NCBI RefSeq assembly: GCF_021401245.1
Contig: NZ_JACBFY010000004.1
Location: 1-64,000, forward strand
Reading direction: 5' to 3'
Source: Pseudacidovorax sp. NFM-22
GTDB taxonomy: Bacteria; Pseudomonadota; Gammaproteobacteria; Burkholderiales; Burkholderiaceae_C
DNA length: 64,000 bases
Position 1 is the first letter of the stretch. Each line of letters opens with the position of its first letter. Both the position numbers and the translations under genes were made by a program. This document shows, in pieces, positions 54,615-57,580 of the stretch. The notes below the pieces were generated by a model. That model did not search any database. It was not told the DNA's origin and was given only the letters and a program-made list of their open reading frames with translations.

Positions 54615-55811
54615 TCAGAAGGAGTGACGAATACCCAGGTCGTAGCCGACCGAGGTCTTCGGCGCATAGCCTCCGACGGCGGTGCCGTTCGTGATCGACA
54701 CCACGGTCGGAGCCGTGATGCTGTTTGAGCCTGCACTGAAGTTGGCGCCGTTCTTGTTCTTGATGTAGGCCACGGTGGCGTACAGGGCGGTGCGCTTGCT
54801 CAGGTTGTGAACGTAACCGACAGCCAGTTGATCAGCCTTGGGTGGGCTGTAGCTGAAGGTGGAGAGCGGGTTTTGGTCCGTCTTGATTTTCACGTTGCCA
54901 TAGGAGGCTTTGATCACGCCTGCGCCGACCGGAACGGTCACGCCCAGCAGATAGCCATCCAACTTGGTCGCAGGATTGAACACGGGTGCGTTCTCGGAGT
55001 AGTCGATCACGCTCTTGGTGTTCTGGTACTGGGCAAACAGCTTGGCGGCGCCGAAGTCGTAGCTGCCAGCCAGGCTGAAGTTCTTGACCAATGCGTCGGC
55101 GCCGAGCGCGTATGACGACTTGGCGTTCTGTTCACCGTAGGAAAGGGCGACATCCACGGGGCCGTTGGCATAGCCGAAGCGGCCGCCCCAGTACCGGCCG
55201 CCCCGGCTGTTGTCGTTCAGGCTGCTTTGGATGGCACTGTCGTACTTGCCTTGCTCATGGAATGCGTACTGCAGTTGACCGTAGAAGCCTCCCAGATTGC
55301 CGGGCAGGAAGTAGCCGACCGAGTTGTTGCTGCGCACGTTGTTGGCTTCGAATGCGGTCGCGGCGCGCTGAACCAATGCAGAACCCGCGCCGTTTGTGCC
55401 GAACGGATCGAACACGGTCAGATTCCAGAACGTGGGCTTGTAGTCACGGCCCAAGCGCACTTCGCCGAACGGGCCCGACAGGCTCACTGTGGAGCGTCGT
55501 TGGAAGTTGAAACCACCGCCTGTGGCCGCGCCGGTGCCTTCGTCATTGCTCAGAGCGCCTTCCAGCCAGAAGCTGGCTGCAAGTCCGCCCCCCAGATCTT
55601 CCTTGCCGCGGAAGCCCAGACGGCTGGAACTGTTGGCGGAGTTGTTCAGGCCGGTCTTGCTGGCCTTTGCTGTGCTTGGCAGCAAAGCGTAAGCCAGAGG
55701 GTTGGCCCGCAACGTCAGCGGGTCCTGAACCAGCTCACTTTTGTTAGAAACACTGCTGATCGAGGCGTCCACGATGCCGAACAGCTCGACCGACGATTGG
55801 GCCGAGGCCAC
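54615..55811 (-). CDS. Gram-negative porin 1, 5'-truncated (likely silent)
   Basis: A trimeric outer-membrane porin of the Burkholderiales type. From AQSSVELFGIVDASIS to the terminal SVGYDLGIRHSF it is complete and closely similar to the porin at 57581-58846. Shared blocks include GGRYWGGRFGYANGP and NLSKRTALYATVAYIKN. The coding match continues upstream only to about 55844 (LAALAALAVAGVASA of the signal peptide). The expected ATG-Lys-Lys start is replaced by unrelated sequence, and no ATG, GTG or TTG precedes the signal core in frame. The GTG at 55811 would give no signal peptide. A transcription terminator lies 52 bp before it. Probably a recent pseudogene, though the frame is intact. Confidence 0.75.
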   Translation of the reverse strand: MASAQSSVELFGIVDASISSVSNKSELVQDPLTLRANPLAYALLPSTAKASKTGLNNSANSSSRLGFRGKEDLGGGLAASFWLEGALSNDEGTGAATGGGFNFQRRSTVSLSGPFGEVRLGRDYKPTFWNLTVFDPFGTNGAGSALVQRAATAFEANNVRSNNSVGYFLPGNLGGFYGQLQYAFHEQGKYDSAIQSSLNDNSRGGRYWGGRFGYANGPVDVALSYGEQNAKSSYALGADALVKNFSLAGSYDFGAAKLFAQYQNTKSVIDYSENAPVFNPATKLDGYLLGVTVPVGAGVIKASYGNVKIKTDQNPLSTFSYSPPKADQLAVGYVHNLSKRTALYATVAYIKNKNGANFSAGSNSITAPTVVSITNGTAVGGYAPKTSVGYDLGIRHSF

Positions 55812-55895
55812 ACCGGCGACAGCCAGGGCAGCCAGAGCAGCTAGGGTTGCCCACGATCTTCTAGAGTGGCCGCTGCTCGCACGAACCCACAGGCC

Positions 55896-55929
55896 AAAGA
55901 AAAAAGCCCCGAGTCTTGCGACTCGGGGC
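55896..55929 (-). terminator. Strong intrinsic terminator of the putative sRNA
   Basis: GCCCCGAGTC and GACTCGGGGC make a perfect 10-bp stem with a 4-nt loop, followed on the minus strand by TTTTTTCTTT. It is a textbook Rho-independent terminator and lies upstream of porin 1, where no minus-strand coding gene precedes it. Confidence 0.9.
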
Positions 55930-55989
55930 CAAATCCACCAATTGGGAGGGTGGAGGAGACAACTGGGGCATACCCTGAGGTATGCGTTG
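55899..55989 (-). ncRNA. Putative small RNA with anti-Shine-Dalgarno-like stretch
   Basis: A compact unit of about 90 nt. The promoter is just upstream (next entry). The predicted RNA starts near 55989. Hairpin 1 is GCATACC-TCAG-GGTATGC (55968-55985). Then comes the single-stranded CCCAGTTGTCTCC. Hairpin 2 is TCCACC-CTCCCAATT-GGTGGA, whose loop contains CTCCC, and the terminator hairpin with U-run follows. CUCC stretches in open positions can pair with ribosome-binding sites, as in many Hfq-type regulators (known principle; application here is inference). There is no ORF of note inside. It could alternatively be a leader attenuator of a formerly intact porin operon. Confidence 0.6.
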
Positions 55990-55995
55990 GGCTAA

Positions 55996-56023
55996 AGTAT
56001 AGCAAAGCAATGCTGCATCGCAA
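55996..56023 (-). promoter_or_regulatory. Promoter of the putative sRNA
   Basis: On the minus strand an extended -10, TGCTATACT (TATACT core at 55996-56001), is preceded after 16 nt by TTGCGA (56018-56023; 4 of 6 to the -35 consensus). It is the best sigma-70-like promoter I see in the window. Confidence 0.6.
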
Positions 56024-56111
56024 CAAGTTGGTGATGCGGAAGCGCAACATTTCTACAGATGCCTGTCATGCCGTGAAGCAGTTCACGGACGCGGGCCAGG
56101 AACTCTTGCAG

Positions 56112-56579
56112 ATGGAATGCACAGTCAGTTGGACCGGCCACGCCGGAACGCGCTCATCCATGGGCTTTGTTGCCGAGACGGGCAGCGGTCACATCTTGAC
56201 CATGGACGGCGCGCCGGACGCCGCACGGCCTGAGAACGGGGGCCTGAACCTCGCCCCGCGGCCGATGGAAACCGTGCTGGCGGGCACTGGGGGATGCACC
56301 GCCTACGACGTGGTCATGATCCTTCGCCGTGGACGTCATCAAGTGGAAGGCTGCAGCGTACGTCTTACCAGCGAACGTGCGGAAAGGGATCCCAAGGTCT
56401 TCACCAAGATCCATATGCACTTCACGGTGACCGGCCGTGCGATTCCGGAGGCGGCCGTCGAGCGGGCGATCTCGCTGAGTCACGAAACCTACTGTTCAGC
56501 CAGCATCATGCTGGCCAAGACAGCTGAGATCACCACGAGCTATGAACTCGTGGACAGCTCTGGAGCCGCCTCGGCCTGA
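56112..56579 (+). CDS. OsmC family protein (YhfA-like)
   Basis: A 155-residue OsmC-fold protein. The start MECTVSWTGHAGTRSSMGF aligns with YhfA-type relatives and has AGGAAC upstream. The catalytic-type cysteines are in GTGGCTAYDV and in HETYCSASIMLAKTAEI, with Glu in APRPMETVLAG. Members reduce organic peroxides or bind thiol substrates. The frame is open another 100 nt upstream, but that stretch has no OsmC similarity and overlaps the divergent sRNA promoter. coq7 lies convergent next to it. Confidence 0.9.
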   Translation: MECTVSWTGHAGTRSSMGFVAETGSGHILTMDGAPDAARPENGGLNLAPRPMETVLAGTGGCTAYDVVMILRRGRHQVEGCSVRLTSERAERDPKVFTKIHMHFTVTGRAIPEAAVERAISLSHETYCSASIMLAKTAEITTSYELVDSSGAASA

Positions 56580-56636: not shown

Positions 56637-57272
56637 TCAAATTCGATGGGCGACGGTGGTCATGACACGCGCGGCCGCGCGCATGAGCGCCTTTGCCGGG
56701 GCCGGCAACGGTAGCCCGCCCGCCTCTTCTGCCCAGGCGGCGTGAGCTGCTTCATCCGCCTTCATGCGGGCGACTACCGCGCGGGAGGCGACATCACCGG
56801 CAGGCAGACGACTCAGATGGCCTTCCAGATGCGCCTCGACCTGCCTTTCCGTCTCCTGGACGAAGCCCAGACTCCATCGGTCACCCAAACGACCAGCGAT
56901 CAGCCCCAGTACGAATGCGCCGCTGTACCAAAGTGGATTCAGCAGTGAAGGTCGAGCACCGAGCTTGTCTAGGCGCTCGCGCGTCCAGCTGAGGTGATCC
57001 GTTTCCTCCTGTGCCGCGCGCAGCAACTCCTGTTTCAGTAACAGGTCGGCGGTAGTCACCGCCTGCGCACTGTAGAGCGCCTGCGCGCATACCTCGCCCA
57101 CATGATTGACGCGCATCAGCGCGCCGGCCTCCTTGCGTTCGGCGGCAGACAACGGTGCTTCGGAATCCACCACGGCTTGCGCGGGAGATGGCGTGCTGGC
57201 GCGTGGGCTGCCCCAGATCGTGCGCAGCGCGCTATCCACAGCGTTGATACAAGCATCGACAGATGAACTCAT
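56637..57272 (-). CDS. coq7: Demethoxyubiquinone hydroxylase Coq7
   Basis: A 211-residue di-iron monooxygenase that hydroxylates 2-polyprenyl-3-methyl-6-methoxy-1,4-benzoquinol, the penultimate step of ubiquinone synthesis. Iron-ligand segments are [40 protein letters not shown] and [13 protein letters not shown]. The hydrophobic [18 protein letters not shown] suits membrane-interface binding. Start [13 protein letters not shown]; an in-frame Met 18 nt earlier (MRSNGD) is possible. Confidence 0.95.
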
Positions 57273-57580
57273 GTCGCCATTGGAACGCATCCCGCGGGCG
57301 CCTTGCTTGCAGCAAGGTTTCGATGTTTTTCGCTATATGAAACTTCCATGGTCTAGGCGTGAGCGGGGAGTGCACCCTGACCTTGTTGTACTGCTGCAAC
57401 GAAACGCGGAGCCCTCTCCAGATTTGGCCCAATTTGCTTTGCCGTGGCGCCGAGCGTCTGGTGCAATAGCGACAACTTCCCAAAAGGAGGTTGGCCCGGG
57501 GCCCGGCGGGAGCACAGCATGTGCCAGCGCGGTGAACCCTTCGCACCGGCGCCCTATGTTTAACCTTGGAGAAACTTGCA
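57273..57580. other. 308-bp intergenic region between coq7 and porin 2
   Basis: No gene is seen. It must hold the coq7 promoter (minus) and the strong porin promoter (plus). I see a small hairpin CCTTGC-TTGCA-GCAAGG at 57301-57317 and a TATATG box near 57332. GGAGA lies 13 nt before the porin ATG, a ribosome-binding site at slightly long spacing. No clear -35/-10 pair could be fixed by eye. Confidence 0.55.

Follow-up and report, generated by a model that had tools for sequence, protein, structure and literature searches.

In the portions of the cited papers on which we draw here and below, the Rfam family RF02278 (Betaproteobacteria toxic sRNA) includes four double-hairpin RNAs of B. cenocepacia with evidence of expression, of which NcS27 slows growth when overexpressed (PMC4603805, PMC5688073, PMC10987360). 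These members are NcS27/bdhR1, NcS03, NcS05, and NcS62, and NcS27 is 92 nt long (PMC5688073); four further RNAs of the family are described in H. seropedicae (PMC7011215). The family was named for its toxicity when cloned into E. coli, with a citation from 2012 (PMC4603805, PMC11722255), and a similar RNA is S17 of B. pertussis, which adjoins coq7 and represses a sigma54 activator (PMC11722255). In glucose medium, ncS03, ncS05, and ncS27 are upregulated 8.0-, 6.9-, and 4.3-fold, respectively, while the fourth copy is absent from the table (PMC5688073). Besides the Bvg control in B. pertussis, the literature searched, as far as these partial texts go, names no transcription factor that acts on the family. 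For the regulator PhaR/PhbF, the PhbF consensus TGnTGC-N3-GCAA was footprinted on phbF, and PhbF represses lacZ fusions (PMC3206438). PhaR of S. meliloti binds the mmgR promoter efficiently in gel shifts, at TTGTGCACCGCAGCA, and phasin genes stay repressed by PhaR until polyhydroxybutyrate (PHB) sequesters the protein (PMC12542648). A printed link between RF02278 and PhaR was not found in the portions of the literature searched, which included PMC5688073, PMC5760752, PMC8401924, PMC9049629, and PMC12542648; the nearest published case is MmgR of S. meliloti (PMC8401924, PMC12542648).

Here, we present an analysis of a small RNA (sRNA) locus in the window, i.e., the whole stretch of 64,000 nt of Pseudacidovorax DNA that was analysed (Table 1). 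The RNA represents a known family, and the PhaR-type operator upstream of it appears to be the new part. The original prediction for this locus had described an extended −10 promoter, an RNA of about 90 nt with three hairpins, CUCC-rich open stretches, and an intrinsic terminator, and we recovered all of these elements. The promoter, TTGCGA-16-TATACT with an extended −10 TG, is the sole sigma70-like site within 55500-56500 (shuffles, mean 0.1). The predicted fold of the RNA (~55990-55899) consists of three hairpins and has an MFE of −43.9 kcal/mol compared with a shuffled mean of −24.2 kcal/mol (z −6.8; none of 200 shuffles was as good). In the terminator, a T run comes directly after the 11-bp stem (55930-55905). 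The CUCC-rich stretches correspond to GUUGUCUCC ahead of SL2 and to CUCCC within the SL2 loop; the GUUG end of GUUGUCUCC is partly paired in the single-sequence MFE structure because the SL1 stem there gains four pairs, CAAC with GUUG. An ORF of 69 aa on the same strand (55841-56050) runs across the sRNA, and nothing that we saw supports its status as a gene.

Table 1. Features of the sRNA locus and its conserved neighbours (window coordinates).
Feature	Position	Strand	Basis
Sigma70-type promoter with extended −10 TG	55996..56023	(-)	
Candidate PhaR/PhbF-type operator, dyad TTGTTGCGATGCAGCA, on the −35 element	56011..56026	(-)	sequence match
Predicted small RNA, ~92 nt	55899..55990	(-)	start inferred from promoter; fold z −6.8
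SL1, 7-bp 5' hairpin	55968..55985	(-)	two-sided changes in genus sequences
Site 1, GUUGUCUCC, anti-Shine-Dalgarno stretch	55955..55963	(-)	TGTCTCC conservation
SL2, UCCACC/GGUGGA stem, CU-rich loop	55934..55954	(-)	covariation
SL3, intrinsic terminator with U tract	55899..55930	(-)	
osmC, divergent conserved neighbour	56160..56579	(+)	Pfam OsmC
coq7, conserved neighbour	56637..57290	(-)	Pfam COQ7

Both hairpins upstream of the terminator show compensatory changes. Among 10 distinct genus sequences, both sides of SL1 had changed at five of the seven pairs, and 82.9% of cells were paired; the covariation score of SL1 and SL2 together was 0.258 compared with 0.156 (sd 0.028) for shuffles, none of 500 of which reached it, and it also exceeded all slid versions. 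When separate sRNA 5' ends were folded alone, nine of nine formed their own hairpin (z −1.4 to −4.5). SL2 was assessed in 40 selected sequences (31 from the family and 9 from the order), in which 99.6% of cells were paired, 8 cells had changed on both sides, and none of 500 shuffles matched this result. The original prediction had named a lack of hairpin conservation outside the terminator as its refutation; since SL1 and SL2 covary, conservation reaches beyond the terminator. Altogether, these features identify a real small RNA that is presumably transcribed and an independent, candidate trans-acting sRNA with anti-Shine-Dalgarno stretches, as had been proposed.

Contrary to the original prediction, this sRNA is not new. 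In a cmscan search, positions 55961-55899 matched model positions 1-64 of RF02278 with 62 bits (cut-off, 50), and the RNA has the layout of that family, with a CU-rich 5' stretch and SL2 followed by the terminator hairpin; we therefore rejected a new RNA family on account of this full-length match above the cut-off. Membership in two other families was likewise rejected on their cut-offs: NmsRb (RF02877) reached 38.7 bits over all 91 model positions (cut-off, 52) and MmgR (RF00519) reached 16.2 bits (E 0.9; cut-off, 41). As a side observation, RF02278 and RF02877 align to the same RNA (55990-55900, −), RF02877 from end to end, and may belong in one clan; the Rfam table lists no clan for either.

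RF02278 matches were found in all 15 genus genomes at E 1e-5 (14 above the cut-off), in 121 of 150 family genomes (104 above the cut-off), and in 39 of 90 order genomes at E 1e-6 (34 above the cut-off), the last count including the own genome and a further member of the family. Two genomes of one order-level family (G169 and G217, family f8) have eight and seven matches, respectively. Within 1.5-kb flanks of 44 standalone loci, osmC was present in 44, coq7 in 43, and a porin gene in 10; for 28 order-level loci, the corresponding numbers were 17, 6, and 0. With shorter flanks and more loci, osmC lies upstream in 127 of 142 loci. The stable context of the sRNA is osmC and coq7, with porins as a local feature. 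The window sRNA is the osmC/coq7-linked member of RF02278 at the same type of locus as Bordetella S17. The description of the RNA as antisense-oriented to osmC does not hold, as the two are divergent and do not overlap. In the nearest loci (L016 and L018), coq7, osmC, and the porin gene are 95-97% identical to those in the window.

The −35 element of the promoter is overlapped by the dyad TTGTTGCGATGCAGCA, the other strand of which fits TG[N]TGC[N]3GCAA exactly. In 14 of 14 genus copies of the window sRNA, TGNTGCNNNGCA lies 60-64 nt ahead of GTTGTCTCC, and the window and all 14 genus loci of this copy fit the full consensus on either strand. For a wider survey, we used 160 oriented loci (23 from the own genome and the genus and 137 from the family search; G115:C3:8-68, which is without upstream DNA, was excluded). 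Subtracting 17 loci behind phasin genes and one with <130 nt upstream left 142 assessable loci. A TGCN3GCA core was present within 130 nt upstream in 123 of these 142 loci, compared with a mean of 17.2 and a maximum of 25 in 50 Markov-resampled runs; the extended site was present in 121 (resampled mean 2.4, max 6) and the full published consensus in 103 on either strand (resampled mean 0.7, max 3) and in 31 on one strand. Eight control palindromes gave the following counts (resampled means in parentheses): TGCN2GCA, 9 (18.1); TGCN4GCA, 3 (17.6); GCTN3AGC, 4 (7.0); CGTN3ACG, 0 (4.5); GTCN3GAC, 2 (2.2); CTGN3CAG, 5 (4.8); TCGN3CGA, 11 (4.4); and GCAN3TGC, 19 (18.0). Of these, only TCGN3CGA went beyond the resampled maximum (11 vs. 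10). As background, the 200 nt upstream of 382 sampled own-genome genes contained the core in 45 cases and the extended site in 10. The gap between the end of the core and the −10 hexamer is 11-14 nt in 114 of the 123 loci; because of this spacing, the operator covers the −35 element. A genome scan for the operator, followed by a −10 and then the sRNA, yielded at least 120 stretches; genera among the matches listed include Variovorax, Polaromonas, Curvibacter, Roseateles, Ottowia, Xenophilus, and Pseudacidovorax. Outside the family, the core was present in 19 of 28 order loci, several of them weak forms, and the full consensus in 8. Two longer or looser patterns were discarded as search tools. 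The full TTGTTGCNNYGCARCA has its only exact match in the own genome at the sRNA site and is of no use as a regulon finder, and the looser TGNTGCNNNGCANCA (87 palindromic sites vs. 2 for the control) was not used as a regulon list because many of the listed sites look like codon-repeat palindromes.

The operator could alternatively serve the divergent osmC gene and leave the sRNA outside PhaR control, as 118 of the 123 family loci bearing the operator have a divergent osmC. However, 105 of 109 such loci have a gap of 11-14 nt between the operator and the −10 of the sRNA (sd 1.7), in contrast to the distance from the operator to the osmC start, which varies from 52 to 312 nt (sd 36). In addition, the site occurs without a detected divergent osmC at 5 family and 5 order loci, and phasin-linked sRNA copies also carry PhaR-type sites, making this alternative very unlikely.

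Copies of the sRNA directly behind a phasin gene account for 17 of the 160 loci, and in all 17, two PhaR-type sites ~53-60 bp apart precede the phasin gene (resampled mean of copies with at least one site, 0.52). One such sibling is in the own genome (L003, G000:C11:1083747-1083803) and begins 15 nt after the final codon of the phasin gene; a search at the gathering score misses it because its 34.3 bits to RF02278 are below the Rfam cut-off. PhaR itself (PF07879) is encoded in the own genome at C11:128456-128635 (E 5.7e-30), and 145 of 150 family genomes, the own one included, have a PhaR domain. Together, these data suggest that PhaR would bind and repress the sRNA promoter. It is also conceivable that the dyad is bound by a different regulator with a similar TGC/GCA palindrome as its target, given that the assignment to PhaR was made by sequence matching and that the 8 kb surrounding phaR lacked an extended site. 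Against this stand the fit of the dyad to the footprinted PhbF consensus and its doubled occurrence before all 17 sRNA-linked phasin genes, and we regard a different regulator as unlikely.

A second promoter class is found among the siblings. In 8 of the 160 loci, the element TGGYAYG-N4-YTGC, which we take to be a sigma54-type promoter, is located just upstream, and seven of these eight loci are without a PhaR-type core. The eight RF02278 copies directly behind such −24/−12 elements are L119, L126, L131, L135, L136, L140, L142, and L147; in the case of all but L147, which are the copies without the PhaR-type core, a PhaR-type copy is present elsewhere in the genome. One or more standalone copies bearing the core occurred in 121 of 133 genomes. 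Altogether, 19 of the 142 standalone loci have no TGCN3GCA in the 130 nt, of which 7 have a sigma54-type site and 12 have neither.

Site 1 is a candidate stretch for target recognition by the RNA. Its TGTCTCC is invariant in the 40 aligned sequences and present in 157 of 160 family loci and 24 of 28 order loci, and the near-invariant GUUGUCUCC is complementary to GGAGACAAC. In a sample of 452 kb of the own genome (window included) with 401 called genes, GGAGACA was the second commonest heptamer at −19 to −4 and the first among Shine-Dalgarno-like heptamers; it preceded 17 of the 401 genes, compared with a mean of 2.24 over 140 distinct letter orderings. Sixteen of these 17 genes were scanned (one at a stretch end was left out). 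They encode 10 TctC receptors, a CoA transferase, an enoyl-CoA hydratase/3-hydroxyacyl-CoA dehydrogenase, an FAD-binding oxidoreductase, a glyoxalase-type protein, a metallo-beta-lactamase-fold protein, and one sigma54 activator, the class of the tested S17 target BP2158 (PMC11722255, in the portion available); no porin was among the 16. The association of GGAGACA with Bug genes had a p value of 8e-10 by a regular-expression Bug proxy that includes some false members and misses others. Genome-wide, GGAGACA-N1-9-ATG occurred 273 times compared with 4 times for the reversed pattern. In the portion of the genome covered by the site list, this leader pattern preceded the domain by 60-260 nt in 22 of 41 TctC genes (random expectation, 0.16) and was lacking in the other 19. 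The own genome has at least 150 TctC/Bug receptor genes. Ranking of targets by duplex energy was uninformative, as the top ranks were GC-rich pairings; nine motif-bearing Bug genes ranked 27-149 of 399, and Bug genes were not singled out. GGAGACA may be just the preferred Shine-Dalgarno sequence of a much-duplicated gene family; because the motif is itself a Shine-Dalgarno sequence and Bug genes are multiplied, the shared leaders alone do not prove regulation.

The name "toxic sRNA", the toxicity in E. coli from which it derives, and the slower growth upon NcS27 overexpression (PMC4603805, PMC5688073, portions of both) would fit an RNA that acts as a general brake on growth by masking Shine-Dalgarno sequences with no choice of targets. 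Yet Site 1 reaches beyond the Shine-Dalgarno core and matches GGAGACA(AC), the GGAGACA-led genes are mostly those for receptors and catabolic enzymes, and overexpression of S17S left exponential growth of E. coli BL21 unimpaired, with modestly impaired entry into stationary phase (PMC11722255, in the portion available). An indiscriminate brake is thus doubtful.

The original prediction had viewed the sRNA as a dedicated regulator of the neighbouring porins. Indeed, porin 1 lies directly downstream of the sRNA, and the porin 2 leader, which has GGAGAAAC, contains GGAGA as described. However, a porin gene lies within ~1.5 kb in only 10 of 44 family loci and in none of the 28 order loci, the porin 2 leader is without the full GGAGACA, its pairing with the sRNA amounts to only −9.7 kcal/mol, and porin 1 has no in-frame start codon ahead of its signal-peptide-like stretch. 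Porin 2 is outside the called gene set; the porin 1 duplex, calculated from an internal start, has −11.7 kcal/mol (rank 187 of 399 sampled genes). Based on synteny and pairing, we rejected porin-specific regulation, for which the chances appear slim in the extreme. Porin 1 (54615-55811, −, upstream to ~55900) is peculiar in itself, with no ATG, GTG, or TTG in frame ahead of the signal-peptide-like stretch and the first listed in-frame start, at 55811, inside it. A sequencing error is unlikely because the sequence upstream of the gene is almost unchanged in the close relative L016, and porin 1 is possibly a non-functional or oddly started gene. Overall, the original interpretation is partly supported.

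Family membership, structure, promoter, operator conservation and spacing, the sibling classes, and the bias of the Bug leaders are all read from the sequences. On this basis, we consider it probable that the RNA is a PhaR-repressed anti-Shine-Dalgarno sRNA that lowers carboxylate uptake and catabolism as PHB accumulates. According to this model, PhaR on the −35 element would repress the sRNA promoter; when PHB accumulates, PhaR would move to the granules, and the sRNA would be made together with phasin, behind the gene of which a sibling copy is carried. The sRNA would then pair via Site 1, GUUGUCUCC, and the CU-rich SL2 loop with Shine-Dalgarno regions, with the GGAGACA(AC) leaders of TctC/Bug solute receptors and of catabolic genes as the main targets, and block their translation, such that full stores would feed back to turn down carbon import. 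We infer transcription of the sRNA, binding of PhaR, the expression pattern, and repression of the targets. Several observations count against this model: the 19 of 142 standalone loci without TGCN3GCA, 12 of which have no sigma54-type site either; the fit of only 8 of 28 loci outside the family to the full consensus; the lack of an extended site within 8 kb around phaR; the link of S17 to the Bvg+ mode in B. pertussis; the possible role of GGAGACA as just a favoured Shine-Dalgarno sequence, along with its absence from 19 of the 41 TctC genes; and the duplex energies, by which Bug genes do not stand out. With somewhat better than even confidence, we also favor a broader reading in which the PhaR regulon has an RNA arm formed by the RF02278 sRNAs in Comamonadaceae and part of the order. 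Granules would titrate PhaR and thereby free the osmC copy and, in some genomes, the phasin copy; other copies would answer to sigma54, perhaps upon nitrogen limitation; one site would silence GGAGACAAC-tagged carboxylate receptors; and storage and the C:N state would feed back on import.

If so, the promoter-locked PhaR operator would supply the signal, i.e., the carbon storage state, and it would agree with the rise of three Burkholderia copies on glucose. One testable circuit would then connect PHB storage with the expression of phasin and the uptake of substrates, which bears on bioplastic production in this group.

Among the known systems, and as far as the available portions of the cited papers go, the window RNA is like the NcS27 group of B. 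cenocepacia in having two hairpins, a CU-rich stretch and loop, and predicted pairing with ribosome-binding sites. NcS27 affects genes for carbon uptake and catabolism, as is proposed for the window RNA. Unlike the NcS27 group, the window RNA has the 5' hairpin SL1 and an identified PhaR-type operator; an upstream motif is common to three B. cenocepacia copies, the regulator of which is not named in the portion of PMC5688073 available. With S17 of Bordetella pertussis, it shares the coq7 neighbour and the conserved Site 1 and Site 2, and the S17 targets comprise transporters and a sigma54 activator (PMC11722255). The short form of S17 arises by cleavage of a ~190-nt RNA and is linked to the Bvg+ mode (PMC11722255), whereas the window RNA is preceded, ~10 nt upstream of SL1, by a promoter of its own with a PhaR-type site; because of the link to the Bvg+ mode, control differs in B. 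pertussis. The Neisseria sRNAs NmsRA/NmsRB (RF02877; NgncR_162/163) are similar in having three stem-loops and anti-Shine-Dalgarno sequences in the SL1-SL2 linker and the SL2 loop; they have metabolic targets, occur as tandem copies, and repress at Shine-Dalgarno sites (PMC5362039). A link between RF02278/S17 and the Neisseria NmsR families was not found in the available portions of PMC5362039, further Neisseria papers, and PMC11722255. Finally, MmgR (alpha-r8, RF00519) of S. meliloti, reported to act on phasin expression, is under negative control by AniA (PhaR) and under positive control by NtrC (PMC8401924). Homology to MmgR is not shown because the window RNA has only 16.2 bits (E 0.9) to RF00519. 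Nevertheless, this dual control parallels the PhaR-type and sigma54-type promoter classes found here, and the RF02278 sRNAs, if regulated as we propose, would represent a betaproteobacterial parallel to the AniA/NtrC control of MmgR in rhizobia.
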